From Conexibacter sp. SYSU D00693 (GTDB lineage: Bacteria > Actinomycetota > Thermoleophilia > Solirubrobacterales > Solirubrobacteraceae): 64,000 nucleotides of DNA. The notes below the pieces were generated by a model, which saw nothing but the letters and a program-made list of their open reading frames with translations, was not told the origin of the DNA and ran no database searches. Position 1 is the stretch's first letter. Each line of letters begins with the position of its first letter. The stretch spans positions 744,001-808,000 of the forward strand of contig NZ_CP070950.1 in assembly GCF_017084525.1 (NCBI RefSeq), read 5' to 3'. Position numbers and translations under genes: made by a program. This document shows positions 15,564 through 32,150 of the stretch, in pieces.

Positions 15564-16838
15564 TCAGCGCCGGTGGGCGACGACCAGCGCGCTGCGGTGC
15601 GGGACCAGGACCGTGCCGCGCACGACCATCCGCTCCGGGCGGGCGGTCACCGCCGAGAACCGCAGGTGGCGCAGGACCACGGGCAGCGCCGCGCGGAACA
15701 GCGCCCACGACAGCGGCTCGCCGATGCACCGCCGCGCGCCGCCGCCGAACGGCAGGTACGGCACGCCGTCCGGCACCCCGCGGGCGAAGCGCTCCCAGCG
15801 CAGCTCGTCCGGCGCGTCCCAGACCTCGGGCGCGCGGTGCAGCAGCAGCGAGTGCAGCGCCACGTGCGTGCCGGCGTCCAGCGCGACGCCCGCCACCGTG
15901 GCCGGCTCGACCAGCCGCCGCAGGACCGCCTGCGCGGGCGGGCGCAGCCGCATGACCTCCCGCACCACCGCGTCGCGCAGCGGTTCGGCGGGCGACGCCT
16001 CGACGAACGCGTCGGCGAGCTCCGGCGCCCGCGCGAGCTCGAGGACGACGTTGGTCAGCGCGATCGACGGCGGCTCCTGCGCCGCCGCCAGGACGACGAG
16101 CAGCTCGTCGGCGACCTCGCGGACCGCCAGCGGGGGCGTCGCCGCGAGCATCCCGCCGAGCACGTCGTCGCCCAGTTCCCCCGACGCCCGCCGCTCCTGC
16201 ACCTCCGCGCCGAGGAGCCGCTCGACGGCCGCCATCCGCCGCTCGAACTCCGCCACGACGGCCGCGCCCAGCGGCCCGTCGCCCGCGCCCGGGACGCCCG
16301 TCGGCGGGTTGCCCGGCGTCCACAGCAGCCGGCGCATGGCCGCGACGAGCGCCGTCGCCCGCCCGTCGTCGCGCACCGCCAGGACCTCCCGCACGAAGAC
16401 CTCGGTCGCCAGCGTGCGCATCCGCGCCAGCAGCCGGAACGGCCGCCCGACCGGCCAGCCGCTGACCCGCCGCTCCGCGAGCTCGGCGATCGCCGGCTCG
16501 ACGCGGGCGATCGCCGCCTCCGAGAAGCCCGCCGCCATCCGCCCCCGGGAGGCCCGGTGCTGCGCGCCGTCGGCGCCGAAGGGCGAGCGCTCCGAAGCCA
16601 GCGGGAGCACGGCCCGGCGCGTCTCGCCCGCGTGGGCGCGGGCCGGGTCCGCGTCGAGCAGCTGCGCCACCGCGGCCGGCGCGCCCGCGACCACGAGCGG
16701 GTCCTTGAGCACCATCCGCAGCGTGAACAGCGGCCCGTGCCGCGCCCGCGCGCGGCGGACCACCCCGAGCGGGTCGCGGTGGTAGAGGACCGTCTGGGCC
16801 AGGGGGCTCGCGCGCGGGCCGTCGGGGAGCGTCGCCAT
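15564..16838 (-). CDS. cytochrome P450
   Basis: A 424-residue soluble P450. The heme-binding loop FGGGARRCIGE has Cys371 as the axial ligand, and EVMR supplies the K-helix ExxR. In the I helix, where most P450s have A/G-G-x-D/E-T-T, this protein reads AAQEPPS: the acid is kept but the oxygen-activating threonine is replaced by Pro. It needs ferredoxin and reductase partners, and none is in the window. It sits upstream of an SDR gene on the same strand, with the DHA2 transporter divergent. Confidence 0.92.
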   Translation of the reverse strand: MATLPDGPRASPLAQTVLYHRDPLGVVRRARARHGPLFTLRMVLKDPLVVAGAPAAVAQLLDADPARAHAGETRRAVLPLASERSPFGADGAQHRASRGRMAAGFSEAAIARVEPAIAELAERRVSGWPVGRPFRLLARMRTLATEVFVREVLAVRDDGRATALVAAMRRLLWTPGNPPTGVPGAGDGPLGAAVVAEFERRMAAVERLLGAEVQERRASGELGDDVLGGMLAATPPLAVREVADELLVVLAAAQEPPSIALTNVVLELARAPELADAFVEASPAEPLRDAVVREVMRLRPPAQAVLRRLVEPATVAGVALDAGTHVALHSLLLHRAPEVWDAPDELRWERFARGVPDGVPYLPFGGGARRCIGEPLSWALFRAALPVVLRHLRFSAVTARPERMVVRGTVLVPHRSALVVAHRR

Positions 16839-16903
16839 CAGAGAGCCGCCGTACCCGTCGCGCGCGGACCCACTGCTAGCGTCGGGGACGTGGCGGGGGC
16901 CGC

Positions 16904-18511
16904 GTGAGCACCAAGCAGGGCGCGCTCGTCGCGGCGATCCTCGGCTCGGCGGTGGTCGCCGTCGACTCGACGGTGGTCAACGTCGCGCTGCCGGCGATCG
17001 AGGACGACCTCGGCGGCGGCCTGGCCGGCCAGCAGTGGGTCGCCAACGCGTACCTGCTCACCCTCGCCGCCCTCATCCTCGTCTCGGGCTCGCTGGCCGA
17101 CCTCTTCGGCGAGCGGCGGCTGTTCGTGCTCGGCGTCAGCGCGTTCGGCGTGACGTCGGTGCTCTGCGCCGTCGCGCCGTCCATCGAGGTGCTCGTCGCC
17201 GCCCGCGCGCTGCAGGGCGTCTCGGGCGCCCTGCTGACCCCGGCGTCGCTGGCGATCCTCATCGCGGTCTTCCCGCCCGACGAGCGCGGCAAGGCGATCG
17301 GCACGTGGACCGCGTGGGGCGGCATCGGCATCCTCCTCGGCCCGCTGCTCGGCGGCCAGATCGTCGACAGCGCGGACTGGCGCGTCGTCTTCGCGATCAA
17401 CATCCCGCTCGTGCTCGGGACGCTCGCGCTCGCCTCGACCTACGTCCCCGCCGGCGAGCCGCGGACCGCGGGCCAGGACCGCCCGCACGTCGACGTCACC
17501 GGCGCCGCGCTCTGCGCGGTGGGCCTCGCCGGCGCCACCTTCGCGCTCATCGAGCAGCCGATGCTGGGCTGGTCGAGCCCCGCCGTCTGGGGTCCCGGTC
17601 TCGGCGGCCTGGCCGTCTTCGCCGCCTTCCTGCGCTTCGAGGCGCGCACGCCCCACCCGATGCTGCCGCTCGGCCTCTTCGGGCGCAGCAACTTCCGCTG
17701 GGGCAACCTCGAGACGCTGTTCATGTACGGCGGCATCGCCGTCATGGGCTTCTTCCTCGGCCTGTTCCTCCAGCAGGCGGCCGGCTGGTCGGCGCTCGAG
17801 GCCGGGACGACGATGCTCGTCCCGACGACGGTGATGTTCGTCCTCTCGCGGCGCTTCGGCGCGCTGGCCGACCGCCTCGGCCCGCGGGCGTTCATGGCGG
17901 CCGGCCCGCTGCTCAGCGCGGGCGGCCTGCTGCTGCTCCTGCGCCTGGACGCGACCGTCGCCTTCGCCACCGACGTCCTGCCCGCGCTCCTGCTCTTCGC
18001 GATCGGCCTGGCGGTCTCCGTCGCGCCGCTCACCGCGACGGTCCTCGCCGACGCCGACGAGCACAACGCGGGCATCGCCTCCGCGGTCAACAACGCGGTC
18101 GCCCGGACGGCCGGCCTGCTCGCGACCGCCGCCGTCGGGGCCGCGCTGTCGGCGTCCTTCGCGGCGGAGGTCGACGACCGCCTGGGCGACCGTCCCCTGA
18201 GCCCGCCGGCCGCCGCCCGGGTCGACGCCGCCAAGGACCGCGCGCTGGGCGTCGCCGACGGCGCGGGCGTCCCGCCCGCGGTCACGGAGGCCACCCGCGA
18301 CGCCGCCGTCTCGACCTTCCACCTCGCGATGGGCATCGGCGCGGCGCTCATGGCCGCCGGCGGCCTCCTCGGGCTGGCCGGCATCCGCAACCCGCGGCCC
18401 GAGGACGGCTGCCGCGACGTCCACGCCGAGGACTGCGCGGGCGGCCAGCTCGCCGGCCAGCCGCAGGACGTCGCGCAGGGCGGTCCGCAGCCCGCCGCGG
18501 TCCCGGCCTGA
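16904..18511 (+). CDS. MFS transporter, DHA2 (EmrB/QacA) family
   Basis: A 535-residue exporter with 14 predicted membrane helices. The first helix has VVAVDSTVVNVALPAI, the DHA2 motif D1, and LADLFGERRLF follows as motif A; RALQGVSGALLTPASLA is motif B/C. It should extrude drugs or metabolites with proton motive force. A hydrophilic C-terminal tail of about 40 residues is rich in Gly, Pro and Gln. GTG 16904 is used; TAGCGT at 16875-16880 may be its -10. It is divergent from the P450 gene and 32 bases before ligA. Confidence 0.9.
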   Translation: MSTKQGALVAAILGSAVVAVDSTVVNVALPAIEDDLGGGLAGQQWVANAYLLTLAALILVSGSLADLFGERRLFVLGVSAFGVTSVLCAVAPSIEVLVAARALQGVSGALLTPASLAILIAVFPPDERGKAIGTWTAWGGIGILLGPLLGGQIVDSADWRVVFAINIPLVLGTLALASTYVPAGEPRTAGQDRPHVDVTGAALCAVGLAGATFALIEQPMLGWSSPAVWGPGLGGLAVFAAFLRFEARTPHPMLPLGLFGRSNFRWGNLETLFMYGGIAVMGFFLGLFLQQAAGWSALEAGTTMLVPTTVMFVLSRRFGALADRLGPRAFMAAGPLLSAGGLLLLLRLDATVAFATDVLPALLLFAIGLAVSVAPLTATVLADADEHNAGIASAVNNAVARTAGLLATAAVGAALSASFAAEVDDRLGDRPLSPPAAARVDAAKDRALGVADGAGVPPAVTEATRDAAVSTFHLAMGIGAALMAAGGLLGLAGIRNPRPEDGCRDVHAEDCAGGQLAGQPQDVAQGGPQPAAVPA

Positions 18512-18543
18512 CGTCGGCCCGTCCTCGTAGCCTGCGCGGGCCC

Positions 18544-20556
18544 ATGACCGAGCCGGGTCCCGCAGAGCGCATCGCCGAGCTGGCGGAGCTCCTCCGCCAC
18601 CACCGCGACCTCTACTACCGCGGCGTCCCCGAGCTGCCCGACGCCGACTACGACGCGCTGGAGGACGAGCTGCGCGCGCTCGTCGCCAAGCACCCGGACC
18701 TCGCGCCGCCCGACAGCCCGCTGGCGACGCCGGGAGCGCCGGCCAAGCTCGAGGGCCAGACCATCCGCCACCAGCAGCGGATGCTCTCGCTCGACAAGGC
18801 CAACCAGCCCGAGCAGGTCGCGACGTTCATGGGCCGCTTCCCCGGCCAGCGCTTCCGCGTGACGCCCAAGCTCGACGGGCTCTCGCTCTCCCTCGTCTAC
18901 GAGGACGGGGCGCTCGCCTACGCCGCCACCCGCGGCGACGGCACGATCGGCGAGCTCGTCACCCACGCGATCAAGCACGTGGTGCCCGAGCTGCCGCTCG
19001 AGGTCCCCGCCCAGGGACGGGTGGAGGTGCGCGGCGAGGCGGTCATGCTGCGCTCGACCTTCGCCGCCTACAACGAGGCCCACCCGGACCGGCCGCTGGT
19101 GAACCCGCGCAACGGCGCCGCCGGGACGCTGCGCCACAAGGACCCCGAGGCGTGCGCGCGCGACGGGCGCGTCCTGACCTTCATCGGCTTCGACCTCCTC
19201 GGCGGCCTCGAGGACCGGCCGTTCGACGAGGCGCTGCGCGAGCTGGGCTTCACCGCGCCCGAGGCCGATGACGTCGACGACGCCGACGGCGCCATCGCGG
19301 CGGTCACCCGCATCGGCGAGCAGCGCCCGCAGCTGGACTTCGACATCGACGGCGCCGTCATCCGCCTGGCCAGTCGCGCGGCGTTCGAGGCCGCCGGCGC
19401 GACGAGCAGCGCGCCCCGCGGCGCCCTGGCGTTCAAGTTCCCCGCCGAGGAGCGCTCCACCACCCTCAAGGCCGTCACCTGGCAGGTCGGCAAGATCGGT
19501 CGCGTCGCGCCCGTCGCCGAGCTCGAGCCGGTCTTCGTCGGCGGCACGACGATCAGCCGCGCGACGCTGCACAACCCGGCCATGATCGCCGCGCGCGACA
19601 TCCGCGTCGGCGACCGCGTCGTCGTGCGCCGCGCCGGCGACGTCATCCCGTTCATCGCCGCCTCGATCGAGAGCGAGCGCACAGGCGACGAGACGGAGAT
19701 CGCGGTCCCCGAGCACTGCCCGTCCTGCGGGACGCCGCTCGTGGTCAAGGGCGAGGGCCAGGAGCGCTGGTGCGAGAACCTCACGTGCCCGGCCCAGGGC
19801 GTCCGGCGGCTCATCCACGCGACGTCGCGCCCCGCGTTCGACATGGAGGCGGTCGGCCCGACGTGGACCGAGCGCCTGGCCGAGGACGGCCTGCTCACCC
19901 GCATCTCGGACTTCTTCCGCCTCACGAAGGACCAGCTGCTGGCCTACGACGGCATGGGCGAGGTGAGCGCGACGCGGATGCTCGAGTCGATCGCCTCCTC
20001 CAAGGGCGTCGGCCTGCGGCGGGCGTTCATCGCCCTCGCCGTGCCGATGGCCGCCGGCGGCGTCGCCCAGCGCCTGTGCCAGCACGGCTTCGCCCGCCTC
20101 GAGGACGTCGCCGAGGCCAGCGAGGAGGAGCTCCAGCAGGTGGATGACGTCGGGCCGAAGGTCGCCGCGTCGGTCCACGCGTTCTTCGCCCGCGAGGAGG
20201 TCCGCCGGGAGCTCGCCGACCTGCGCGAGCTCGGCGTCGACCTCGACGTCGCCGAGGAGGACAGGCCCGTCGACGTCGCGGAGGCCGCCGAGACGCCGCT
20301 CAAGGGCGCGACGGTCGTCGTCACGGGGGCGATCAGCCACCACGCCAACGGCGCGACGGTCACCCGGCCGGACTTCACGAAGCTCCTGGAACGCGCGGGC
20401 GCCACCGCCGCCAGCTCGGTCAGCGGCAACACCGACATGCTCATCACCGGCGCGAACGTCGGGGCGAGCAAGACGGCCAAGGCCGAGAAGCTCGGCGTGC
20501 AGGTCGTCGACCAGGAGCAGGCCTGGCGCTGGCTGGTGGACGCCGGGCTGGCCTAG
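18544..20556 (+). CDS. ligA: NAD+-dependent DNA ligase, divergent LigA
   Basis: A 670-residue protein with all LigA domains: Ia (YYRGVPELPDADYD, residues 24-37), adenylation with KLDG (Lys109 takes AMP), EVRGE, NPRN and FKFPAEE; OB fold; a four-Cys zinc finger (CPSC...CENLTCP); HhH domain; and C-terminal BRCT. It seals nicks using NAD+. It deviates from typical LigA at normally invariant places: GELVT instead of GEDVT, and DGAVIRL instead of DGVVIKV, so motif IV Lys is Arg. It may therefore be a second, specialised ligase. TAGCCT 10 bases before the ATG suggests its own promoter. Confidence 0.92.
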   Translation: MTEPGPAERIAELAELLRHHRDLYYRGVPELPDADYDALEDELRALVAKHPDLAPPDSPLATPGAPAKLEGQTIRHQQRMLSLDKANQPEQVATFMGRFPGQRFRVTPKLDGLSLSLVYEDGALAYAATRGDGTIGELVTHAIKHVVPELPLEVPAQGRVEVRGEAVMLRSTFAAYNEAHPDRPLVNPRNGAAGTLRHKDPEACARDGRVLTFIGFDLLGGLEDRPFDEALRELGFTAPEADDVDDADGAIAAVTRIGEQRPQLDFDIDGAVIRLASRAAFEAAGATSSAPRGALAFKFPAEERSTTLKAVTWQVGKIGRVAPVAELEPVFVGGTTISRATLHNPAMIAARDIRVGDRVVVRRAGDVIPFIAASIESERTGDETEIAVPEHCPSCGTPLVVKGEGQERWCENLTCPAQGVRRLIHATSRPAFDMEAVGPTWTERLAEDGLLTRISDFFRLTKDQLLAYDGMGEVSATRMLESIASSKGVGLRRAFIALAVPMAAGGVAQRLCQHGFARLEDVAEASEEELQQVDDVGPKVAASVHAFFAREEVRRELADLRELGVDLDVAEEDRPVDVAEAAETPLKGATVVVTGAISHHANGATVTRPDFTKLLERAGATAASSVSGNTDMLITGANVGASKTAKAEKLGVQVVDQEQAWRWLVDAGLA

Positions 20557-20646
20557 CCGGTTCGGACCCGGCGCGTTCTCGACCCGTTCACGGCACCGTC
20601 ACCGCCCGGTCACGCGGGCCGGCCCCCGCGGCGGTGAGCTGCGCCC

Positions 20647-21336
20647 ATGGAGGTCATCGCCCACCGCGGCGCCTCCGCGCACCGCGCCGAGCACACCGCC
20701 GAGGCCTTCGACCTGGCGGTCGCCCAGGGCGCGGACGTGGTCGAGCTCGACCTGCGCGCGACGGCCTGCGGCGAGCCGGTCTGCCTGCACGACCCGACGC
20801 TCGCGCGCACCCACGGCGACCCGCGGGCGATCGCCGCGACACGCCTCGACGAGCTCGACGCCGCGACCCGCCCGCTCACCCTCGCCCAGGTCCTGTGGCG
20901 CTACGGGCAGCGCACCCGGCTGCTGCTGGAGCTCAAGGCGCCCGGGGCCCCGGTGGTGGCGACCGTCGAGCGCGTCCGTGCCGCCGGGGTCGCCGACCGC
21001 GTCGTCCTGCAGTCCTTCGACGCGGACGCCCTGCGCCGCGCCCGCCGCCTCGCACCGGAGCTGCCGGCCGCCCTCCTCACCGCCCGCCGTCCGACGGGCG
21101 CCGACCTGGACCGCGCCGCCGCCGAGGGGCTGCAGGGCGTCGGCGTCCCGCAGGAGACGGTGGACGCCGACCTCGTCGCCGCGGTCCACCGGCGGGGCCT
21201 GGTGCTGCGGGCGTACACCGCCAACACGCCGCGGCGCCTGCGCGAGCTGGCCGACCTCGGCGTCGACGGCCTGATCACCGACGCCCCCGACCGCGCCCGC
21301 GCCGTCGTCGACGCGCGCCGCCGCGCCGCCGCCTAG
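20647..21336 (+). CDS. glycerophosphodiester phosphodiesterase
   Basis: A 229-residue GDPD-family TIM barrel. IAHRGASAHRAEHT (residues 4-17) holds the catalytic His/Arg, and VELDLRATACGEPVCLHDPTL gives the metal-binding Glu/Asp and second His. It hydrolyses glycerophosphodiesters to glycerol phosphate plus alcohol. There is no signal peptide, so it is cytoplasmic. It converges tail to tail with the TagB/F-like gene, overlapping stop codons, and sits at the edge of the polyol-phosphate cluster, where it might recycle glycerol phosphate. Confidence 0.92.
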   Translation: MEVIAHRGASAHRAEHTAEAFDLAVAQGADVVELDLRATACGEPVCLHDPTLARTHGDPRAIAATRLDELDAATRPLTLAQVLWRYGQRTRLLLELKAPGAPVVATVERVRAAGVADRVVLQSFDADALRRARRLAPELPAALLTARRPTGADLDRAAAEGLQGVGVPQETVDADLVAAVHRRGLVLRAYTANTPRRLRELADLGVDGLITDAPDRARAVVDARRRAAA

Positions 21337-22427
21337 CGCGCGCCGCGCTCGCGGGCCAGCGCGAGCGCCCGGTCGAGGACCCGGCGCGTGGCGCCGCCGT
21401 CCTCGAGGCCGCAGAAGCGCTCGTGGAAGGCACGCCGGCGCTCGGCGTAACGCGCGTGCAGCCCGTCGAGGTCGCCCAGCGCCCGCACCAGCTCGCCGGT
21501 CGTGCGCACGAGCGGCCCGGGGGCGATCGGCTCGAGCTCGAAGTAGAAGCCGCGCAGCCGGTCGGCGTAGTCCTCGAGGTCGTAGACGAAGAACGCCTGC
21601 GGCTTGCCGGTCACCCCGAAGTCGAACATCGTCGAGGAGTAGTCCGTCACGAGGACGTCGGCGGCGAGGTAGAGCTCGGCGACCTCCGGGTGCAGCGAGA
21701 CGTCGAGGACCCGGTCGCCCGACAGGTCGCCCAGGGCGCCGGTGAGCATGTAGTGCAGGCGCAGCAGCAGGACGACGTCGGCGCCCAGGCCGGCCCGGAA
21801 CCGGTCCACGTCGAGCTCGAGCGACGGGGCGCGCCCGCCCGCCTCGAACACGGCGTCGTCGCGCCACGTCGGGGTGTAGAGGACGGCCGTCGTGCCGTCG
21901 GCCAGGCCCAGCTCGCGCCGCACCCGCGCCCGCACCGCGCCGGCCTCGCGGCCGACGAGGACGTCGTTGCGCGGGTAGCCCGTCTCGAGGACCTCGCCCT
22001 CGAAGTGGAAGGCCCCGCGCAGGAGCGGCGTGGCGGCGGGGGAGGGGGAGACCAGGAGGTCCCACCGGTCGACGTCGCCCTGCAGGCGCTCGAGCCGGCC
22101 CTCGGGCGCCCACAGGACGTCCCAGTGGATGCGCTTGAGCGGCGTCCCGTGCCACGTCTGCAGGTACACCGCCTCCGGGCGCTTGTCCCAGACGCAGTCG
22201 GTGTGCGTGTTGGCGACCAGCAGGTCCGCCGCCTCGAGCGCCGCCCGGCCCTCCGGGGTGCCCCACGGCACCGTGGCGACGTCCTCCGGGAACCCCGTCC
22301 CGTGGCGGGGGTCGGCGAGCCAGACGACCTCGTGCTCGGCCGCCGCGCCGTCCCGGACGAGCGCCTCGTACAGGGCGCGGGGGTTGTCGCTGTAGCGGCC
22401 CTCGAAGCTGTGGAACGCGATGCGCAT
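21333..22427 (-). CDS. CDP-glycerol glycerophosphotransferase family protein (TagB/TagF-like)
   Basis: A 364-residue transferase of the PF04464 family. TWHGTPLKRIHWD (near residue 110) and VTDYSSTMFDFGVTGKP (near 275) are the two conserved nucleotide-sugar binding blocks of TagB/TagF enzymes. These add glycerol or ribitol phosphate units from CDP-polyols to cell-wall polymers. It has no membrane segment. The start ATG 22427 is 10 bases after the -10-like TACGGT (22438-22443). It is divergent from a nucleotidyltransferase gene and a glycerol-1-phosphate dehydrogenase gene, which could supply its donor. Confidence 0.88.
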   Translation of the reverse strand: MRIAFHSFEGRYSDNPRALYEALVRDGAAAEHEVVWLADPRHGTGFPEDVATVPWGTPEGRAALEAADLLVANTHTDCVWDKRPEAVYLQTWHGTPLKRIHWDVLWAPEGRLERLQGDVDRWDLLVSPSPAATPLLRGAFHFEGEVLETGYPRNDVLVGREAGAVRARVRRELGLADGTTAVLYTPTWRDDAVFEAGGRAPSLELDVDRFRAGLGADVVLLLRLHYMLTGALGDLSGDRVLDVSLHPEVAELYLAADVLVTDYSSTMFDFGVTGKPQAFFVYDLEDYADRLRGFYFELEPIAPGPLVRTTGELVRALGDLDGLHARYAERRRAFHERFCGLEDGGATRRVLDRALALARERGAR

Positions 22428-22493
22428 CGGGCGGCGCACCGTACCCGTCCCGACGCCGGTTCAACGGCGGCGTGCCGGGCAAGTGAAGAACCC

Positions 22494-23267
22494 GTGAACT
22501 TCGCCCCGTCTCCCCGCCCCGTCCACGTCGTCGTCCTGGCCGCCGGCCGGGGCAGTCGCCTGGGGGCCCTGGGAGACGCCACGCCCAAGTGGCTGCTCGA
22601 GGTCGGAGGCCGCACCCTGGCCGACCGCCACCTCGAGGCGTTCGCCGCCGCCGGCGGCGCGGTCGCGTCGGTCCGCGTCGTCACGGGACATGCGGCGACG
22701 GCGATCATCCACGAGCTGGCCGACTCGCCGCAGGTCGACGAGGTCGTCCACAACCCGCAGTACGCCACCCGCAACAACTGGTGGTCGCTGCTCCTCGCGC
22801 TGCGCCGGCTCCCGGCCGGCGAGCCCGTCGCCGTGGTCAACGCCGACCTGCTCGCCGACCCTGACGCGGTGGCGTCGTTCCTCGTCGCCGCGGCCAACGG
22901 CCCGGCCGAGGGCCTGCTCGCCGTCGACCTCCAGCGCCTGCTGACCGACGAGTCCATGAAGGTCCAGCTCGACGACGGCGGCGCGCTGTCGCGCATCGGC
23001 AAGGTCGGCATCGCCGCGCCGGTGGGGGAGTACGTCGGCCTGCTCATGGCGCGCGGCCGGGTGCTCACCGCCCTGCGCGCCGCGCTCGAGCGCTTCGCCG
23101 ACTGCCCCGCGTCGTTCGACGAGTGGTACGAGGGCGCCGTCGGCGCCACCGCCGCCACGGGGCACCGCTGGGAGGTCTGGCCCATGCCGAGCTCCGGCTG
23201 GGTCGAGATCGACGACGACGCCGACCTCGACCTGGCCAGGACGGTCGCCGCGGGAGCACCCGCATGA
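22494..23267 (+). CDS. nucleotidyltransferase (CTP:polyol- or choline-phosphate type)
   Basis: A 257-residue enzyme of the NTP_transferase family. The signature VLAAGRGSRLG followed by TPKWLLEVGGRTL (residues about 13-40) binds nucleotide and magnesium; NPQYATRNNWWSL and VVNADLLADP follow, as in LicC-type phosphocholine cytidylyltransferases. It most likely makes a CDP-activated phospho-polyol. GTG 22494 has GAAG upstream and gives the full N-terminal strand. Its stop overlaps the next ATG by 4 bases, coupling it to the glycerol-1-phosphate dehydrogenase. Substrate specificity is inferred from context only. Confidence 0.82.
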   Translation: MNFAPSPRPVHVVVLAAGRGSRLGALGDATPKWLLEVGGRTLADRHLEAFAAAGGAVASVRVVTGHAATAIIHELADSPQVDEVVHNPQYATRNNWWSLLLALRRLPAGEPVAVVNADLLADPDAVASFLVAAANGPAEGLLAVDLQRLLTDESMKVQLDDGGALSRIGKVGIAAPVGEYVGLLMARGRVLTALRAALERFADCPASFDEWYEGAVGATAATGHRWEVWPMPSSGWVEIDDDADLDLARTVAAGAPA

Positions 23268-24355
23268 CCGGGCGCGGGCCTCGCGCCGTCGAGATCCCGC
23301 GGCTCCTGCACGTCGGCACCGGCTCGCTGCGCCAGGTCGCGGCGCTCCTGGACGAGCACCGCTTCGACCTCGGCCTCGTGCTGGTCGGCAGCGGACGTGG
23401 GCCCTCACGCGCGCTGGCGGAGGCCGTGGTGCAGGAGCTCGAGGCGGCCGGCGTCAGCGTCGTGCACCGCGCCGGCCTCGCCGGACGGCTCGACCAGGCG
23501 GCCGCCCTGGCCGGCGAGGTCATCGAGCGGGGCGTCACCTGCGCGGTGGCCGTCGGCGGGGGGCGGGTGATCGACACCGTCAAGCTCGCCGCCGCGCGCA
23601 CCGGCGTGGACTTCGTCTCGGTCCCGACGGCCATCTCCAACGACGGCATCTCGTCGCCGGTCGCCTCGCTGGTGGGCCGGGACGGCGCCCGCGCCAGCCA
23701 CGCGGCCCGGATGCCGTGCGGCATCGTCATGGACGTCGGCGCCATCGCCAGCGCGCCCGCGCGCTCGCTGCGCGCCGGCCTCGGCGACCTCGTCAGCAAC
23801 CTCACGGCCTGCCTGGACTGGCGGCTGGCCGACCGTGCCGGCCACGACCGCTACGACGCGTTCGCCGCGATGATCGCCGAGTCGGCGGCCCGGCCCGCGC
23901 TGGACCTGGCCGACCTCGGGTCCGCCGGCGCGAAGGAGGTCCTCGCGCACGGCCTGCTCCTCAGCGGCCTGGCGATGGCCGCCGCCGGGACGAGCCGTCC
24001 CTGCTCGGGCGCCGAGCACCTCATCTCCCACGCACTCGACGCCCAGCTCGGCGGCGGCGCCGCGCTGCACGGCGAGCAGGTGGCGCTCGGGACGCTCGTG
24101 GCGGCGGCGGCACACCGGGCTCCGCCGCTCGAGCAGCTCCACGCGCTCTTCCGGCGCGTCGGCCTGCCCACCTGCCCGGAGGACCTCGGCCTCACGCGCC
24201 ACCAGCTCGCCAGCGCGATGCTCGCGGCGCCGGCCGTCAAGCCCGAGCGCTGGACGATCCTCTCCGACCGCTGCACGGACCCGGGCGCGGCCGCCGAGCT
24301 CGTGGCCGAGGCGTTCCCGCCGGTGTCGGCGTCCGTCCGCCAGCTCGCCTCGTGA
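23264..24355 (+). CDS. sn-glycerol-1-phosphate dehydrogenase (AraM/EgsA-like)
   Basis: A 363-residue member of the iron-alcohol dehydrogenase superfamily. The NAD-binding VAVGGGRVIDTVKLAA (residues about 88-103), VPTAISNDGISSP, and the metal-binding SGAEHLISHAL and LHGEQVALG blocks are those of glycerol-1-phosphate dehydrogenases, which reduce dihydroxyacetone phosphate to sn-glycerol-1-phosphate. This stereoisomer is archaeal-type; in Bacillus the AraM product goes into heptaprenylglyceryl phosphate. Here it is fused by 4-base overlaps to a nucleotidyltransferase gene before it and a mannitol dehydrogenase gene after it, suggesting an activated glycerol-1-phosphate donor. Confidence 0.88.
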   Translation: MTGRGPRAVEIPRLLHVGTGSLRQVAALLDEHRFDLGLVLVGSGRGPSRALAEAVVQELEAAGVSVVHRAGLAGRLDQAAALAGEVIERGVTCAVAVGGGRVIDTVKLAAARTGVDFVSVPTAISNDGISSPVASLVGRDGARASHAARMPCGIVMDVGAIASAPARSLRAGLGDLVSNLTACLDWRLADRAGHDRYDAFAAMIAESAARPALDLADLGSAGAKEVLAHGLLLSGLAMAAAGTSRPCSGAEHLISHALDAQLGGGAALHGEQVALGTLVAAAAHRAPPLEQLHALFRRVGLPTCPEDLGLTRHQLASAMLAAPAVKPERWTILSDRCTDPGAAAELVAEAFPPVSASVRQLAS

Positions 24356-25791
24356 CCCGCGCCGCCCTGCCCCTCAGCGAGGCGACGCTCGGCCACCACG
24401 CGCAGCGCGTCGCCGTCCCCGGCTACGACCGCGCCCGGCTGGCCCCCGGCGTCCTGCACATCAGCGTCGGCTCGTTCCACCGCGCCCACCAGGCCGTCTA
24501 CCTCGACGACCTGGCCGCGCTCGGCCACCGCGAGTGGGGCCTGGTCGGCGTCGGCCTGCACCGCCCGCAGATGCGCGAGGCCCTCGAACCCCAGGACGGG
24601 CTGTTCACCGTCGTCGAACGGGGAGCCGGGGGCGACCACGCCCGGGTGGTGCGCGTCGTCACCCGCTACCTGTTCGCCCCGCAGCAACGCGCGGAGCTCC
24701 TGCACGCCTTGCGGGACCCGCGGCTGCGGCTCGTGACCCTGACGATCACCGGTGCCGGCTACACCGCCCACCCCTCGGCGGAGGGCTCGGCGATCGACCT
24801 CCTGGTGGCCGGCCTGGCCCGCCGCCGCGCCGACGGCCTGCCGCCGTTCACGGTGCTCTCGTGCGACAACCTCCCCGGCAACGGCGACCTCGCGCGCGGA
24901 GCGGTCGTCGGGCTCGCCGCGGCCCGCGACCCCGAGCTCGCGCGGTGGATCGACGCCCAGGGCGCCTTCCCCAGCAGCATGGTCGACCGGATCACGCCGA
25001 GGACCTCCGACGCCGACCGCGCGTGGGTCGCCGAGGCGTTCGGGGTGCGGGATCGCTGGCCCGTCATCACCGAGCCGTTCTCGCAGTGGGTCGTCGAGGA
25101 CCGCTTCAGCGCCGGGCGCCCGCCGCTGGAGGAGGTCGGCGTCCAGCTCGTCGACGACGTCGCGCCCTATGCCCTGCTCAAGACGCGGATGCTCAACGCG
25201 AGCCACTGCGTCCTCGGCCACCTCGGCGGACTGCTGGGCCATGGCCGGACCGACGAGGCGGTGGGCGACCCGCTCCTGCGCGCCGCCCTCGACGCGCTCA
25301 TGGAGCGCGAGGTCCAGCCGCTGCTGCACCCGGTGCCCGGCGTGGACGTCGACGCCTACCGCGCGACGGTCCTCGAGCGCCTCGCCAACCCGGTGCTCGG
25401 CGACCGCCTCGCGCGGCTGCGGCGCAACGGGTCCGACAAGGTGCCCGTCCACGTCGTCTCGTCCCTGGCCCGCGCCCGCGCGAGCGGGCGGCCGCACGGC
25501 CTCCTGGCCCTCGGCGTCGCGGCGTGGCTGCGCTGCCTGCGCGGCACGGACGAGGCCGGCCGACCGCTCGAGCTGGAGGACCCGCGCGCGGCACGCCTCG
25601 GGGAGCTCGCGCGGCGGGGCGGCCCCGACCCGCGGCCGCTGCTGCACGAGCGCGGGCTGTTCGGGGCGCTGGCGGGCGACGAGGCGCTCGCGGCACAGCT
25701 CGCTGCGACGCTCGAGGCGTTCGAGCGCGACGGCGTGCGGACGACCGTGCGCGCGGCGCTCGCCGCGCAGGACACGCCCGCGGTCGCCTAG
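24352..25791 (+). CDS. mannitol dehydrogenase family protein
   Basis: A 479-residue polyol-specific long-chain dehydrogenase. HISVGSFHRAHQAVYLDDL starts the NAD-binding domain (residues about 34-52), and LLKTRMLNASHC (near 280) carries the catalytic Lys/Asn/His of the family. Members interconvert mannitol/fructose or sugar-acid pairs such as fructuronate/mannonate. GTG 24352 overlaps the preceding stop (GTGA). Its place at the end of the nucleotidyltransferase-G1PDH operon suggests it makes or consumes the polyol used by that pathway. Confidence 0.9.
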   Translation: MTRAALPLSEATLGHHAQRVAVPGYDRARLAPGVLHISVGSFHRAHQAVYLDDLAALGHREWGLVGVGLHRPQMREALEPQDGLFTVVERGAGGDHARVVRVVTRYLFAPQQRAELLHALRDPRLRLVTLTITGAGYTAHPSAEGSAIDLLVAGLARRRADGLPPFTVLSCDNLPGNGDLARGAVVGLAAARDPELARWIDAQGAFPSSMVDRITPRTSDADRAWVAEAFGVRDRWPVITEPFSQWVVEDRFSAGRPPLEEVGVQLVDDVAPYALLKTRMLNASHCVLGHLGGLLGHGRTDEAVGDPLLRAALDALMEREVQPLLHPVPGVDVDAYRATVLERLANPVLGDRLARLRRNGSDKVPVHVVSSLARARASGRPHGLLALGVAAWLRCLRGTDEAGRPLELEDPRAARLGELARRGGPDPRPLLHERGLFGALAGDEALAAQLAATLEAFERDGVRTTVRAALAAQDTPAVA

Positions 25792-26663
25792 CGCGCCACG
25801 CGGACCGTCTTGCGCTGCAGCCGCGTCCAGCGGCCGTTGCGGAAGGCCTCGACCGTCGCGGTCCAGCGGCCCTTGCCCGGCCGCACGGTGATCGTCGCGA
25901 CGCGCTGCGGGGCGACCTCGACGGTGCGGCCGCGCCGCGCGCCCTTGCGGCGCAGCAGCAGGCGGACCTTGAGGCGCTGCGTCGCCGGGTTGGTGACCGT
26001 GGCGATGACCGACCGGCCCGCCTTGCGCAGCTTGGCGGTCGGCGGCCGCGCGGCCGGCGCGGTCGTCGTCCCGGTCGTGGTGCCACCGCCGGAGCCGCTG
26101 CCGTCCAGGGGCTTGCCGTCCAGCCCCAGCGGGCACTCGCCCTGGGCGGCGCCCGAGCCGGCGGGGCCGGCGCCGGCGGGCTGGGCCACGACGAGCGTCC
26201 AGAACGTGCCGGCGATGGAGACGCCGGTGCCGATGTCGCGGAAGGCGGGGGACATGATGTTGCGGCAGTGGGGCCCGCTGCCCATCCAGGTCGCGACGAC
26301 CTGCCGGGCGGTGCGCTGGCCGCGGGCGATGTTCTCGCCGGAGGTCGCGGCGGCGTAGCCCGTCGCCTGGACCCGCTGCTCCGGCGTCCGGCCGCTCGGG
26401 TCCTCGTGGGCGAAGTAGCCGCGGGTCAGCATGTCCGCCGAGTGCTCCCGCGCGGCGCGGGCGAGGCGGGACTCCACCTCGAGTGCGCGCAGCCCGCGGG
26501 TGGCGCGCACCTCGTTGACCGCGCAGACCAGGGCGCCCTCGGCCGTCGCCGGCTCGAGCGTCGCCAGCGGCGACTCGGCGCCCTCGCACGCCGCCTGCGC
26601 CGTCGCCGGCGCCGCGCACGCCACGGCCATCGCCGCGATCACGGCCCCCAGTCCCCACCTCAT
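25788..26663 (-). CDS. secreted CAP-domain (SCP/PR-1-like) protein
   Basis: A 291-residue precursor with a signal peptide (residues 1-25). The CAP domain spans about 45-165: VCAVNEVRATRGLRAL, ARAAREHSADMLTRGYFAHEDPSG, ENIARG, and the closing HCRNIMSPAFRDIGTG block. A Gly/Thr-rich linker and a basic, beta-rich C-terminal domain (about 215-291) follow, possibly for wall binding. Bacterial CAP proteins are extracellular and of mostly unknown function. Start ATG 26663 is preceded by TACCCT (26672-26677) at 8 bases. Confidence 0.88.
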   Translation of the reverse strand: MRWGLGAVIAAMAVACAAPATAQAACEGAESPLATLEPATAEGALVCAVNEVRATRGLRALEVESRLARAAREHSADMLTRGYFAHEDPSGRTPEQRVQATGYAAATSGENIARGQRTARQVVATWMGSGPHCRNIMSPAFRDIGTGVSIAGTFWTLVVAQPAGAGPAGSGAAQGECPLGLDGKPLDGSGSGGGTTTGTTTAPAARPPTAKLRKAGRSVIATVTNPATQRLKVRLLLRRKGARRGRTVEVAPQRVATITVRPGKGRWTATVEAFRNGRWTRLQRKTVRVAR

Positions 26664-26735
26664 GTCGCCCGAGGGTAGCTCGCGCCGACCGGCGATCACC
26701 CCGCATCGCGCCGAGCGGCCTGCCAAGCTGGCCGG

Positions 26736-27134
26736 GTGGCCGACCGCAACGTCCTCGGTGATCCGCTCGTGCCCTGCGGCACCGACCCGGTCACCGGCTT
26801 CTACCGCGACGGCTGCTGCGCCACGGGCCCGCAGGACCGGGGGAGCCACACGATCTGCGCGGTCGTGACCGCCGAGTTCCTCGAGCACCAGCGCGAGATC
26901 GGCAACGACCTCTCGACCCCGCGGCCCGACCTGCGCTTCCCGGGACTCCAGCCGGGCGACCGCTGGTGCGTCACCGCCGTGAACTGGATGCGCGCCTACC
27001 GCGACGGCGCGGCGGCCTACGTCGTGCTCGCGTCGACGCACGAGCGCGCCCTCGACCACGTCCCCCTCGCTGCGCTGCAGGAGCTGGCCGTCGACGTCCC
27101 CAGCGACCTCGGCGGGCTCGAGGGCGCGGCCTAG
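26736..27134 (+). CDS. DUF2237 family protein
   Basis: A 132-residue protein. NVLGDPLVPCGTDPVTGFYRDGCC-type N-terminus with TG, then HTICAVVTAEFLEHQ, GNDLSTPRPD, FPGLQPGDRWCV and ASTHERAL are the conserved blocks of DUF2237 along nearly its full length. The family has conserved cysteines but no known function. GTG start at 26736. It converges with ureH, their stops overlapping. Confidence 0.88.
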   Translation: MADRNVLGDPLVPCGTDPVTGFYRDGCCATGPQDRGSHTICAVVTAEFLEHQREIGNDLSTPRPDLRFPGLQPGDRWCVTAVNWMRAYRDGAAAYVVLASTHERALDHVPLAALQELAVDVPSDLGGLEGAA

Positions 27135-27793
27135 CCGACGCCCGCGTAGCCCAGCCCGAACGCGATCGCGAGCACCCCGAGCACGGGGACCACGACCCGC
27201 TCGGTCGCGGTCGCCAGCGCCGGGCGGCTCAGCGCCCACCCGGCCACGCCGGAGCAGAGCGCCATCGACAGCGCGGTCGCCGGGGCGAAGACGGCGAGGG
27301 CCAGAGCCGCCTGCTGGGGCTCGAGCTGCGCGAGCAGGAGCACCACTACCGCCCCGGTGCCGCCCAGCCCGTGCAGGACGCCGACCCCGGCCGCCTGCAG
27401 CGGCGAGCGCGGCGCGCGCGTGCGCCGGGCGAGCGCGCCGAGCAGGGCCTGGACGCCGAGGAGCACGATCGCGACCCCCACGAGCTGCTCGAGGCGGTGC
27501 TGGAGGCCGTCGGGGAGCTCGCGCTGGAGGACCACGAGCGGCAGGCCGACGGCGAGGAGCGTCGCGGCGTGGCCCGCGCCCCACCATGCGCCCAGCCGCG
27601 CCGCCGCGCGCGGCTCGCGCCCGGACGCGGCGACGAGCGTCCCCATGGCGGCGAGGTGGTCGGGGTCGGTCGCGTGGCGCAGCCCGAGCAGGAGCGCCAG
27701 CGCCAGGACGACGAGCAGGCCGGCGCCGCCGAGGCCGACGGCGAGCGCGGCGTCCGCGGACTCGATCAGGTCGTGGAACCAGTCAGGGACCAT
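27131..27793 (-). CDS. ureH: UreH-type nickel/cobalt transporter
   Basis: A 220-residue membrane protein with six or so helices. GLRHATDPDHLAA carries the H-x4-D-H metal motif of the NiCoT/UreH permeases, and RLGAWWGAGHAATLL is the second family motif. It most likely brings Ni2+ in for urease. It is the last gene of the leftward urease operon; its ATG 27793 lies 28 bases inside the end of ureD, so translation is coupled. Confidence 0.88.
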   Translation of the reverse strand: MVPDWFHDLIESADAALAVGLGGAGLLVVLALALLLGLRHATDPDHLAAMGTLVAASGREPRAAARLGAWWGAGHAATLLAVGLPLVVLQRELPDGLQHRLEQLVGVAIVLLGVQALLGALARRTRAPRSPLQAAGVGVLHGLGGTGAVVVLLLAQLEPQQAALALAVFAPATALSMALCSGVAGWALSRPALATATERVVVPVLGVLAIAFGLGYAGVG

Positions 27794-28542
27794 GGTGGGT
27801 GAGACGCTCCGAGGTCGGCGAGGTCATCGGTCTGGGTGAAGAGCGTGCGGCGCCAGGCGCGCGCGGCGGGACCCGTGCGCCGGTGGGCGGCCGCCAGCGA
27901 GGGCGCCGGGACGGGCAGGACGCTGCCGGGGCCGGCGAGCTGCAGCGCGTCCCGGTCGGCGGCCCGCCGCCCGAACAGCGCGACCGCGTCGAGGACCCGC
28001 GCGTCGCCGAGGACGACGGCGGACCGCAGCAGCGGGAGGTCGGCGGTGTCGAGCTGCTCGGCGTGCAGCGGCCGCCCCTCGAGCGCCACGTGCAGCGCGC
28101 TGTGCGCGCGTCCGGGCTCCTGGCCCGTGCGGCCGAGCACGACCGTGTCGCGCAGGAGCGCGGCGGCACCGGCGGCCAGCTCGACCGAGGTCGTGCGCCG
28201 CAGGTCGCAGCCGGCGGCGAGCACGAGGGGCTGGGCGTCCCACGAGAGGCAGGCGCCCGGGCCGAGGACCACCTCGACGTCGAGGCGTGCCGGGGTCCCG
28301 CCGCGCACGTCGTGGGCCACGAGGCCCGCCACCTCGACGAGCTCCAGCCGCGCGCCCGGGCCGAGGCGCACGTCGAGCGCGACCTCGTCGCCGGCCAGCA
28401 GCGAGGCGGTCGTCTGCACGAGCGCGACCCGTGCCACGCCGTCCACCGCCGGCAGCGCCCGGGCCCGCAGGAGCCCGGCCGACCGCAGGACCGCCAGCCG
28501 CGTCGTCGCGCCGTCGCGCCGGGCGACGACCTCAGTGCGCGT
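27766..28542 (-). CDS. ureD: urease accessory protein UreD
   Basis: The protein matches UreD from [17 protein letters not shown] through [18 protein letters not shown] to the C-terminal RRTLFTQ-containing end. UreD is the scaffold that holds UreF-UreG on apo-urease during nickel loading. The 5' end is unsolved: homologous sequence reaches back to the ureG stop at 28532, but no ATG, GTG or TTG is in frame there. The only upstream start is GTG 28719 deep in ureG, and the first downstream one is GTG 28446, which would delete a conserved strand. I draw the 5' end at an in-frame ACG (28542), which is not proven. Confidence 0.8.
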
Positions 28543-29239
28543 GCTGGTGCGCGTGGCCGTGCTCGTGGTCGTGGGCGTGGACGTGCGGGGCCATCGGCCC
28601 CGGGTCGGCGGGCACGAGGGTCCCGGCCAGGTGCGCGGCGAGCCGGTCGCGCACCCAGTCGGCGACGCGCTCGACGTCCGGGGCGCGGCGCAGCGAGACG
28701 GCCAGCACGGGCCGGTCACCGCGACGGTCGGCCGCGTCGCGCAGCATGAGCTCGACGTCGGAGCCCACCAGCGGCGCCAGGTCGACCTTGTTGATGACGA
28801 GCAGGTCGGCGCGCTCGACGCCCGGGCCGCCCTTGCGCGGGACGTCGTCGCCGCCCGCGCAGTCCAGGACGAAGACCTGGGCGTCCACGAGCGCGGGCGA
28901 GAACGTCGCCGTCAGGTTGTCACCGCCGGACTCGACGAGGACGACGTCGAGCGGGCCCTGCGCGGCCTCGAGCGCCTCGACGGCCAGGAGGTTCTCGGAG
29001 ACGTCGTCGCGGATCGCGGTGTGCGGGCAGCAGCCGGTCTGCACCGCGACGATCCGCTCGGGCGGCAGGACGCCCTGGCGGCGCAGGAAGCGCGCGTCCT
29101 CGTCGGTGTAGATGTCGTTGGTGACGACGCCGAGCCGCAGCTCGCGCGCCAGACGGGCGCACAGGGCGGCGGCCAGGGACGACTTGCCGGTCCCGACAGG
29201 TCCGGCGATCCCGATCCGCAGGGCACGGTCAGCTGGCAA
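28532..29239 (-). CDS. ureG: urease accessory GTPase UreG
   Basis: A 235-residue SIMIBI GTPase that delivers nickel to urease. GPVGTGKSS (residues 13-21) is the P-loop, [13 protein letters not shown] holds the Cys-Pro-His metal site, ESGGDNL and NKVDL complete the G motifs. Unusually, the C-terminus carries a histidine-rich tail of about 17 residues ([17 protein letters not shown]), whereas His-rich UreG/HypB stretches are normally N-terminal. The start is TTG 29239, supported by a strong GAGGAGG 4 bases upstream and by the [15 protein letters not shown]-terminus. It overlaps the end of ureF by 11 bases. Confidence 0.95.
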
Positions 29240-29849
29240 AGAGCCTCCTCGAGTCGTGGTGGTGGGCCTGCGCGCGCAGGTCGAGCAGGGGGGTGGCGGG
29301 CGCCGGCAGCGGCGCACGCGGGTCGGCGGCCTGCGCCGCCAGCGCCTCGACCAGCGGCCCGAGCGCGTGCAGCCAGCCCGTGGCCTCCAGCGCGTCGATG
29401 GCGTGGAGCTTGGGCGCGGCGCCGCAGACCGAGGCCGCGTCGTCGTAGAGGGCGAGCCGCGCGACGGTGACGGGTGCCAGGCACCCGGCACGCCCGAGCA
29501 GGCCGAGGACGACCGGGCGCGGCGTGGTGGCCGACGTCGCGGCGTAGGTCTCCAGCGCGTCGGGCCACAGGGCGCGGCCGAGGCGCAGCAACGCCCGGCC
29601 CTGGCGGCGGGCGACCTCCCGGACCGCCGGGGCGGGCGTGCGGGCGGCCCACGCCGCGTCGAGCGCGAGCGGGTCCTCGCCGTCCGCCGCGCGGGCGGCG
29701 GTCGCGGCGTCCAGGCGCCCGACCGTCCGCAGCCGCGCGGCGGCGAACGCCGGCACGTCGCCGGGCGTCGCGCGTGCCGCCTCCAGCCCGCCCGAGTGGG
29801 CGAAGCCGCCGGTCGGCGTGCGCGCGTCGGCGAGGAGGAGCTCGAGCAT
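29229..29849 (-). CDS. ureF: urease accessory protein UreF
   Basis: A 206-residue all-helical protein. [22 protein letters not shown] near the N-terminus is the UreF signature, and [23 protein letters not shown] near residue 140 is its C-terminal counterpart. UreF bridges UreD and UreG and acts as a checkpoint for nickel insertion. ATG 29849 shares one base with the ureC stop (TGATG). The dispersed 15-bp palindrome at 29472-29486 lies inside the gene without breaking the frame. Confidence 0.92.
29244..29250 (-). promoter_or_regulatory. strong Shine-Dalgarno for the TTG start of ureG
   Basis: GAGGAGG on the minus strand, 4 bases before the TTG at 29237-29239. It decides the start, since there is no ATG or GTG near the conserved N-terminus of UreG. 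It lies inside the end of ureF. Confidence 0.75.
29472..29486. repeat. GGGTGCCAGGCACCC palindromic repeat, copy 2
   Basis: Identical to the 15-mer at 10570-10584 and extended here to a 17-bp palindrome (C and G on the outside). It lies inside ureF, where it encodes part of a Gly-Cys-Leu-Ala-Pro-Val segment in a variable loop. Confidence 0.6.
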
Positions 29850-31552
29850 CAGAAGAGGCTGTAGCGCTGGGCCATGGGCAGCTCGGCGACGGGCCGGGGC
29901 TCGATCGCCTCGCCGTCGACCGTCACCACGAACGTCTCGGGATCCACGTCGATGGCCGGCAGCGCGTCGTTGTGGACCATGTCGGACTTCGTCAGCGCCC
30001 GGGTGCCGCCGACCGCCTCCAGGCGCCGGCGCAGGGCCAGCCGCCCGGCCACGCCGTCCTCCAGCGCCCCCGGAGCGACCCAGCTGACCGCGTGCTCGGG
30101 CGCCGCGCCGCTCAGGGCCGCGAACATCCGCCGCCCGAGCACCGGCTGGGGGGTGGGGATCGACGCGTTCGCGTCGCCGATCGGCGCCCAGGCCACCGCG
30201 CCGCCCTTGAGCACCAGCCGCGGCCGGACGCCGAAGAACGCCGGGTCCCACAGGACGAGGTCCGCGAGCTTGCCGACCTCGACCGAGCCGACCGTCGCGT
30301 CGATCCCGTGCGCCACCGCCGGGCAGATCGTGTACTTGGCGACGTACCGGCGCGCCCGGGCGTTGTCGGCGCGCCCGTCGCCGGCCAGCGCGCCGCGCCG
30401 CGCCTTCATCGCGTGGGCGGTCTGCCAGGTGCGGATGACCGTCTCGCCGATGCGGCCCATCGCCTGGCTGTCGGACCCGATCATCGAGATCGCGCCGAGG
30501 TCGTGCAGCACGTCCTCGGCGGCGATCGTCGAGGCGCGGATGCGCGACTCGGCGAAGGCCAGGTCCTCGGGCACGCGCGGGTTCAGGTGGTGGCAGACGA
30601 TGAGCATGTCCTGGTGCTCGGCCACCGTGTTGACCGTGTGCGGGCGCGTCGGGTTCGTCGAGGACGGCAGGACGTTCGGGTGCGCGGCGATGGCGATGAT
30701 GTCCGGCGCGTGGCCGCCGCCCGCCCCCTCCGTGTGGTAGGCGTGGATCCCGCGGCCGGCGATCGCCCCGAGGGTCGACTCCAGGAAGCCCGCCTCGTTG
30801 AGCGTGTCGGTGTGGATCGCCGCCTGGACGTCCCAGCGCTCGCAGGCGCGCAGCGTCGCGTCGATCGCCGCGGGCGTGGAGCCCCAGTCCTCGTGGAGCT
30901 TGAAGCCCGCCGCGCCGGCCAGGACCTGCTCGTCCAGCGACGCGTCCGAGACGGTGTTGCCGCGGCCCAGCAGCAGCACGTTGACCGGCGCGTCGTCCAG
31001 CGCGCGGTGCACGAGCGCCAGGCCGGCGGGCGTGGTGCACGTCGTCGCCCGCGTGCCCTCGGTCGGCCCGGCGCCGCCGCCGACGAGCGTCGTGACGCCG
31101 GAGGCCAGCGCCTCGTCGACCAGCGACGGGGTGATGAAGTGCACGTGGCAGTCGATGGCGCCGGCGGTGAGGATCCGCCCCTCCCCGGCGACGACGTCGG
31201 TCCCCGGCCCGATGACCAGCGCGGGGTCCACGCCGTCCATCACATCCGGGTTGCCGGCCTTGCCCAGCGCGCAGATGCGCCCGTCGCGGACGCCCACGTC
31301 GCACTTCACGACGCCCCAGTGGTCGAGGACCACGACGTTGGTGACGACGAGGTCCGGCGCGCCGTCGGCGCGCGTCGCCAGCCCCTGGAGCATCGACTCC
31401 CGCACGGTCTTGCCGCCGCCGAAGACGGCCTCGTCGCCCCCGGCGCAGCGGTCCTCCTCGACCTCGACGAGCAGGTCGGTGTCGGCGAGGCGGATGCGGT
31501 CGCCGACCGTCGGGCCCAGCAGCTCGGCGTAGCGCCGGCGGTCGACGCTCAC
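29849..31552 (-). CDS. ureC: urease subunit alpha
   Basis: A 567-residue catalytic subunit, the normal length. CHVHFI gives the first two nickel His ligands, [14 protein letters not shown] the carbamylated bridging Lys and a His ligand, [12 protein letters not shown] further His residues, [10 protein letters not shown] the mobile flap with its Cys-His, and [10 protein letters not shown] the Asp ligand. With UreA and UreB it hydrolyses urea to ammonia and carbamate. GTG 31552 overlaps the ureB stop (GTGA); the stop overlaps ureF by one base. Confidence 0.97.
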
Positions 31553-32144: not shown

Positions 32145-32150
32145 CGGCGC

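Follow-up and report, generated by a model that had tools for sequence, protein, structure and literature searches.

A putative CDP-1-glycerol pathway for sn-glycerol-1-phosphate transfer in Conexibacter sp. SYSU D00693 and its relatives

Introduction

A compact five-gene module in the actinobacterium Conexibacter sp. SYSU D00693 probably encodes a dedicated pathway for the transfer of sn-glycerol-1-phosphate (G1P) via CDP-1-glycerol. The module lies at positions 20647-25791 of the window, by which we mean the whole stretch of 64,000 nucleotides that was analysed (contig NZ_CP070950.1, positions 744,001 to 808,000), in a genome that consists of a single contig of 4.43 Mb. At its core, the gene of a nucleotidyltransferase (NTase) precedes that of a G1P dehydrogenase-like protein (G1PDH). 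The G1PDH would convert dihydroxyacetone phosphate (DHAP) to G1P, the NTase, which resembles LicC, IPCT and PntC, would join G1P and CTP to give CDP-1-glycerol, and a TagF/TarF-like GT-B enzyme would transfer G1P from this donor to an acceptor. Candidate acceptors are a glycan, a growing polymer, or a polyol that a mannitol dehydrogenase-like enzyme (MDH) would make together with a HAD phosphatase. The resulting phosphodiester would have the chirality opposite to that of ordinary glycerol wall teichoic acid, and a GDPD-family enzyme would cleave or recycle the glycerophosphodiester. Substrates, nucleotide, chirality and final product are in this scheme predictions from gene families, residues, linkage and co-occurrence. 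CDP-alcohol activation and TagF-type transfer appear to be of known kinds; the predicted donor would be unusual.

CDP-1-glycerol has been called likely absent in bacteria (PMC8262930). The same source lists bacterial surface structures with G1P from other donors. It also describes formation of CDP-1-glycerol from glycerol-1-phosphate in vitro by a CDP-glycerol activity of Archaeoglobus fulgidus and by AQ1368 of Aquifex, and an archaeal use of the compound for glycerophosphoinositol. The former activity belongs to an unidentified enzyme in a lysate, and AQ1368 is a promiscuous enzyme of the cytidylyltransferase family that prefers sn-glycerol-3-phosphate (G3P). Bacterial G1PDH has been discussed in the light of lipids (PMC5059525; PMC6431249), and where it occurs together with partner lipid genes, work on the lipid divide reads it as potentially indicating archaeal-like lipids (PMC6431249).

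Results

The pairing of NTase and G1PDH is the most constant feature of these loci. In a survey of 201 genomes of the order, with a homologue threshold of E<=1e-40 and up to 10 candidates scored per genome (up to 14 in the survey of GDPD), so that single absences are soft, G1PDH was found in 28 genomes, and an NTase gene directly precedes it at all 28 loci, the window's included. Genes in relatives were called by a GC-position caller and their starts are approximate. A scan of named genomes by G1PDH, restricted to the best 80 of 448 relatives, placed an NTase within 25 bp of G1PDH at 37 of 49 bacterial and 0 of 31 archaeal loci; these figures describe that sample, and the 37 include many close relatives within the Micromonospora group. 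The scan overlaps the order set, as L060 belongs to genome G024 and the G1PDH of L124 is the same as that of L043, which leaves 35 of 47 as new. A linkage present in bacteria and missing in archaea accords with the idea that the NTase is a mark of G1P being used for something besides ether lipid.

The loci of the order fall into three types. Type A comprises 11 loci including the window, with G1PDHs 66-80% identical to that of the window, and forms a separate clade in a midpoint-rooted tree with SH-aLRT as its support measure. The tree holds 94 of 108 rows; 11 Micromonospora-group rows were omitted, as were L039 (similar to L038), L060 (from the genome of L032) and L068 (faulty translation). 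The closest named match to the window G1PDH among the best 80 of 448 relatives, where the window's own record may be excluded, is a Solirubrobacteraceae metagenome-assembled genome (MAG) at 80% identity. A phylum-wide search at E<=1e-90, meant for type A, returned the window genome alone among 296. This suggests that type A is not common outside the order, and the sample, which held few genomes of the order, supports no more than that.

The first-pass annotation described five open reading frames in the module; their coordinates proved correct and the families it named were all matched over Pfam cut-offs. The features are as follows.

20647..21336, + strand: GDPD-family phosphodiesterase, 229 amino acids (aa); PF03009 140.6 bits, over the Pfam cut-off; proposed to hydrolyse the glycerophosphodiester product or recycle it
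21333..22427, - strand: TagF/TarF-like CDP-glycerol glycerophosphotransferase, single GT-B domain; PF04464 313.8 bits, cut-off 22.1
22428..22493, no strand: intergenic stretch of 66 bp, flanked by the divergent genes for the TagF-like protein and the NTase
22494..23267, + strand: NTase, 257 aa; PF12804 (NTP_transf_3) 58.7 bits; proposed CTP:sn-glycerol-1-phosphate cytidylyltransferase
23264..24355, + strand: sn-glycerol-1-phosphate dehydrogenase-like protein (G1PDH; EgsA/AraM family), 363 aa; Fe-ADH_2 108.2 bits
24352..25791, + strand: long-chain polyol (mannitol-2-) dehydrogenase (MDH), 479 aa; Mannitol_dh (PF01232) 153.2 bits, Mannitol_dh_C (PF08125) 130.5 bits; accessory

The reported 4-base overlaps are likewise present, at 23264-23267 (ATGA) between NTase and G1PDH and at 24352-24355 (GTGA) between G1PDH and MDH. 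The former recurs in L032, L035 and L070 (genes as called), and the GDPD gene is convergent with the TagF-like gene with an overlap of 4 bases. Translation of the TagF-like protein probably begins at ATG 22427 and not at GTG 22439, an alternative start of the reading frame, because homologues start at that methionine. No sigma-70-like promoter or terminator-like signal was found in 20500-26000, including the intergenic stretch, and there was no Rfam match at gathering scores in 18000-33000.

The neighbourhood is conserved among type A loci, so that the loss of conservation which the first-pass annotation had named as refuting its prediction was not observed. TagF-like and MDH genes adjoin the NTase-G1PDH pair in nine of the 11 (window included), and each of the 11 genomes carries one PF04464 gene. 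The other two, G024 and G030, keep PF04464 away from the pair, in an operon-like row with GH1-like and GT4 genes; they retain the rest and have no MDH at E<=1e-40. A gene for a HAD phosphatase follows MDH in seven of the nine type A loci with MDH; in L040 the contig ends inside MDH, and the window has no HAD gene there. A second MDH-HAD pair occurs in the window genome (L171:9166-11375; G000:C1, about 64.2 kb), its MDH being 53% identical to the window MDH and its HAD 58% to that of L034. MDH and HAD thus occur away from the NTase-G1PDH pair at this second site in the window genome and, without the pair, in G013. The two resemble an attachable unit for polyol synthesis. In most type A genomes G1P may therefore be transferred to a polyol, and in G024 and G030 to a glycan. 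GDPD homologues (E<=1e-40) are found in eight of the 201 genomes, seven of them among the 11 of type A, and GDPD lies beside the module in five type A loci. An LPG_synthase_TM-like gene and DUF5718 adjoin the second MDH-HAD pair.

Across the order, the transferase family tracks G1PDH. PF04464 was detected at E<=0.001 in 22 of the 201 genomes and over the cut-off in 20, of which 18 have G1PDH (exceptions G058 and G001). When a match is counted as strong at E<1e-60, a threshold that was set afterwards, G1PDH accompanies it in 17 of 18 genomes, with G058 as the exception. Within genera, the genomes of g1 and g8 and genome G060 of g15 that have no G1PDH have no PF04464, and their type A congeners have both. 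In genus g2, genome G001 has no G1PDH and a PF04464 match that is only weak and partial (E 4.5e-14).

Outside type A, too, transferase genes neighbour the pair. In the Nocardioidaceae locus L099 the start of a PF04464 gene falls 1 base within the end of the gene for G1PDH. Type B (13 loci) combines the pair with CDP-OH_P-like proteins and glycosyltransferases, and with an ABC-2-type membrane protein in 12 of 13, as grouped by sequence clustering with family names Pfam-verified in L042 and L044 only. A PF01066 gene stands beside the pair in type B loci and in those of Thermoactinomycetaceae/Fictibacillus, as seen with Pfam for L042, L044 and L064 (the last from Marininema) and by similarity for others, among them L063, L067 and L078. 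LicD follows a HAD gene beside the pair in one Clostridia locus (L083); in another (L134) the pair is followed by HAD, then methyltransferase and sortase genes, without LicD. One pair is therefore neighboured by three families, PF04464, PF01066 and, at a single locus, LicD, all of which are known to use CDP-alcohols. In the four loci of type C (L051, L052, L054 and L055; family f4) the pair adjoins a repeat protein whose length as called is 2,584-2,865 aa, some copies being truncated at the limit of the retrieved stretch. These four proteins resemble one another in several registers, that of L055 has no Pfam or PDB match, and Wzx- and Wzy-type genes lie near the pair in L055.

A synteny block of tagG, tagH, araM, a sugar-phosphate NTase gene and a CDP-alcohol transferase gene has been reported from Streptomyces (PMC13118837). 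Here araM, NTase, CDP-alcohol transferase and tagG/tagH stand together as in type B loci, but the block is presented as teichoic-acid-associated synteny, and the available text contains no CDP-1-glycerol proposal and no version with PF04464 or MDH. This was the nearest report found; within the accessible text of the open literature, we found no CDP-1-glycerol role for an NTase-G1PDH pair.

At the level of single enzymes, the best solved matches to the NTase profile are PntC (6pd1), LicC (1jyk) and IPCT (4jd0 and 2xme), with MurU (4y7t) fifth. An AF2 model (pLDDT 93.5) also has PntC, LicC and IPCT at the top in Foldseek, at about 18-21% identity in structural alignments, and VIA gave Z scores of 28.5 for PntC, 26.5 for LicC and 24.0-25.4 for IPCT. 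All three use CTP to activate small alcohol phosphates or phosphonates, and the window NTase differs from them in being paired with G1PDH.

The window G1PDH retains 39 of 44 columns that are invariant in 30 archaeal G1PDHs (30 of the 31 archaeal loci, L068 being dropped). Among them are D175, H252 and H269, presumably the metal ligands. Against the PDB it matched 3ce9 (named glycerol dehydrogenase) best and then the G1PDHs 4rgq, 4rfl and 5fb3. Formation of G1P from DHAP is the predicted reaction. The protein is like archaeal EgsA and Bacillus subtilis AraM in its best NCBIfam model and in these residues, which were compared with archaeal sequences; it differs in its separate type A clade, in its NTase neighbour and in the genomic setting, where PcrB is not over the cut-off in 26 genomes.

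For the TagF-like protein, the AF2 model (pLDDT 84) has its best Foldseek matches in TagF (3l7m and 3l7j; TM 0.84-0.85, 35-36% identity). H97 and H229 are conserved without exception in an alignment of 10 sequences; the H444N TagF entry 3l7j has asparagine in the column of H97, and H229 aligns with chain position 584, which we assume to be the second, catalytic histidine of TagF. The protein shares with the TagF/TarF wall teichoic acid transferases the PF04464 fold, the invariant histidines and the expected CDP-glycerol chemistry. Unlike these, which use CDP-3-glycerol from TagD, it would receive its donor from the NTase-G1PDH pair, hence the opposite chirality. It also differs in being single-domain. 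The MDH matched the mannitol 2-dehydrogenases 7rk4 (6.9e-114) and 1lj8 in the PDB. Its best NCBIfam matches were fructuronate reductase and D-arabinitol 4-dehydrogenase, both below cut-off, and it reached 54.1 bits against the mannitol-1-phosphate 5-dehydrogenase model (cut-off 368). Its role is possibly to make a free polyol acceptor.

We also looked for genes of the classical routes. TagD (TIGR01518) was over the cut-off in 0 of the 18 strong PF04464 genomes, the window's included, and a canonical TagD donor was set aside on this count. PcrB/GGGPS was over the cut-off in 0 of 26 genomes, with one sub-threshold match in G022, and an ether lipid was rejected as product accordingly. Among the five module genes and eight scanned flanking genes there was no TagGH-type exporter or linkage-unit enzyme.

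Several observations on neighbouring and related loci may be recorded. The module is adjoined on one side by the gene of LigA, an NAD-dependent DNA ligase (18544-20556), of which the window genome has a second match at G000:C1:3842675 (39% identity). Genes around LigA differ in the stretches from four same-genus genomes, and no insertion boundary could be drawn from these as an empty site. On the 3´ side, within 27131-31552, lie genes for a NicO-type nickel transporter (27131-27793) and the urease alpha subunit (29849-31552). Shifts in composition occur in the window at 12001-14000 and 54001-56000 (GC 0.708 with GC skew 0.18, and AT skew 0.33). DUF5941 is present in the type B loci L042 and L044, in L042 at 8153-8776 between CDP-alcohol transferase and NTase; it shares a BLAST cluster with CDP-OH_P proteins there and may be a degenerate CDP-alcohol transferase. 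In L070, from an unclassified bacterium, a Wzx-type gene lies near the pair, as does a gingipain-type (Peptidase C25) protein of 2,142 aa with FG-GAP repeats (12853-19281); this protein did not resemble the repeat proteins of type C. G1PDH without NTase was found on WOR-3/Stahlbacteria-type contigs (L061, L062, L065, L066, L071-L074 and L090), those of L062 and L073 branching with the archaeal half of the tree under midpoint rooting; G1P may be used for lipids in this group. The G1PDH of L138, on a contig titled 'bacterium isolate clean3188', is nested among Thermoplasmata and the record may be an archaeal MAG.

Discussion

The proposal in the first-pass annotation that the TagF-like transferase uses a CDP-activated sn-glycerol-1-phosphate gains support from comparison, namely from the linkage of the pair, its CDP-alcohol transferase neighbours, the co-occurrence of PF04464 and G1PDH, and the profile and fold of the NTase. 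Several results weigh against it. As a single sequence, the NTase has the uridylyltransferase MurU (4y7t) as its first PDB match (2.2e-5), slightly ahead of LicC in second place (7.3e-5), and MurU is also its best NCBIfam match (43.7 bits, cut-off 250). VIA sets PntC and LicC apart, whereas IPCT is nearly tied with GlmU, GalU and other uridylyl- and thymidylyltransferases. Since the single sequence favours MurU and the VIA scores nearly tie, we grade the use of CTP as likely and no higher. The best NCBIfam match of the G1PDH, PRK00843, scores 261.7 bits, below the curated cut-off of 413, and for this reason we call the protein G1PDH-like and not an equivalog; the TagF-like protein reaches 268.6 bits with TarF, its best match, where the cut-off is 550. 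NTase is missing at 12 of the 49 bacterial G1PDH loci (nine of WOR-3/Stahlbacteria type, the actinobacterial L094 and L116, and L138). No strong PF04464 was found in 11 of the 28 G1PDH genomes, all of type B or C and including G196 (g15, type B), and G058 has a strong PF04464 match but no G1PDH at E<=1e-40, the threshold to which that search was confined. The Fisher p-values for co-occurrence, 1.8e-16 for strong PF04464 with G1PDH and 1.1e-9 for GDPD with type A, ignore shared ancestry. TagD-model matches below the cut-off of 165.4 occur in seven of the 18 strong PF04464 genomes (34-43 bits), and PF03808 (TagA/WecG family) occurs elsewhere in the genome in all 11 type A genomes, as it does in seven of 14 controls, e.g. 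Escherichia coli. TagF-like enzymes, finally, can take both glycerol-phosphate enantiomers (PMC8262930), which makes chirality unreadable from sequence.

Some of these points would fit a variant of the classical wall teichoic acid route, in which the TagF-like enzyme transfers G3P from CDP-3-glycerol. This donor would come from another cytidylyltransferase or from the action of the NTase on G3P, and the G1PDH would have an unrelated function. The TagF fold with its invariant histidines, the ubiquity of PF03808 in type A and the weak TagD matches favour it, and absence of PF03808 fails as an argument against a wall polymer. We nevertheless consider this variant unlikely, given that no TagD is over the cut-off in the 18 strong PF04464 genomes, that PF04464 tracks G1PDH, and that the PF04464 gene overlaps the G1PDH gene in L099. 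With PF03808 genes present elsewhere in all type A genomes, the product may be a wall- or lipid-anchored polymer. Much closer to negligible is an archaeal-type ether lipid, with G1P made for GGGPS/PcrB. There is a precedent in B. subtilis, whose heptaprenylglyceryl phosphate is built from G1P supplied by AraM (PMC4244643; PMC5059525), but PcrB is not over the cut-off in the 26 genomes tested and NTase linkage is confined to bacterial loci in the scan.

Two further schemes draw on known pairs of a CTP-dependent NTase and a reductase, Mnp1/Mnp2 of Streptococcus pneumoniae and HS5.18/HS5.17 of Campylobacter jejuni, which build CDP-mannitol or CDP-glucitol (PMC10918830). By analogy with these, the NTase could act on fructose-6-phosphate or mannitol phosphate and the MDH reduce the ketose, as the 4-base overlap of MDH with G1PDH might suggest. 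This is very improbable: the NTase is constantly paired with G1PDH and not with MDH, which G024 and G030 lack at E<=1e-40 and for which no gene turned up in the stretches retrieved around the 17 loci of types B and C; MDH-HAD also stands apart from the pair in G000 and G013; and the MDH is of the long-chain, free-polyol type, whereas HS5.17 is a short-chain dehydrogenase/reductase that acts after CTP transfer to fructose-6-phosphate (PMC10918830). The first-pass annotation had offered mannitol phosphate as an alternative to G1P; as the main product it is disfavoured by the type of MDH, which is a mannitol-2-dehydrogenase and not a mannitol-1-phosphate 5-dehydrogenase, and by the two genomes without it at E<=1e-40. 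Equally doubtful is a reversed order of steps, with CDP-dihydroxyacetone made from DHAP and CTP and then reduced to CDP-glycerol by the G1PDH-like enzyme. The CDP-glucitol and CDP-mannitol pairs do transfer the nucleotide before reduction (PMC10918830), but the archaeal-invariant columns are largely kept in the window G1PDH, whose family acts on free DHAP (PMC4244643). No member of the G1PDH family is known to us to act on a nucleotide-linked substrate, though no search for one was made.

A polymer of unusual stereochemistry, as first suggested, would not in itself be new. Lipoteichoic acid is a bacterial poly-sn-glycerol-1-phosphate, but its G1P comes from phosphatidylglycerol and not from a CDP donor (PMC8262930; PMC8587909). 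What would be new is CDP-1-glycerol as donor.

One intriguing if speculative extension, to which we give distinctly less credence than to the window pathway, is that NTase-G1PDH constitutes a widespread dedicated bacterial CDP-sn-glycerol-1-phosphate pathway feeding three transferase families. The version in the window would then lead to a mirror-image glycerophospho-polyol or -glycan instead of a classical wall polymer, with its own sn-1-specific GDPD. If this were true, most actinobacterial G1PDHs would gain a role outside lipids.

In conclusion, the module of Conexibacter sp. SYSU D00693 is best read as a predicted route for G1P transfer via CDP-1-glycerol. If this holds, the NTase-G1PDH genes of actinobacteria and some Firmicutes would have a role in the envelope or in solutes, and it becomes possible to test from which donor, and with which chirality, these bacteria make their glycerol-phosphate products. 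G1PDH alone would no longer be a safe marker of archaeal-type lipid.

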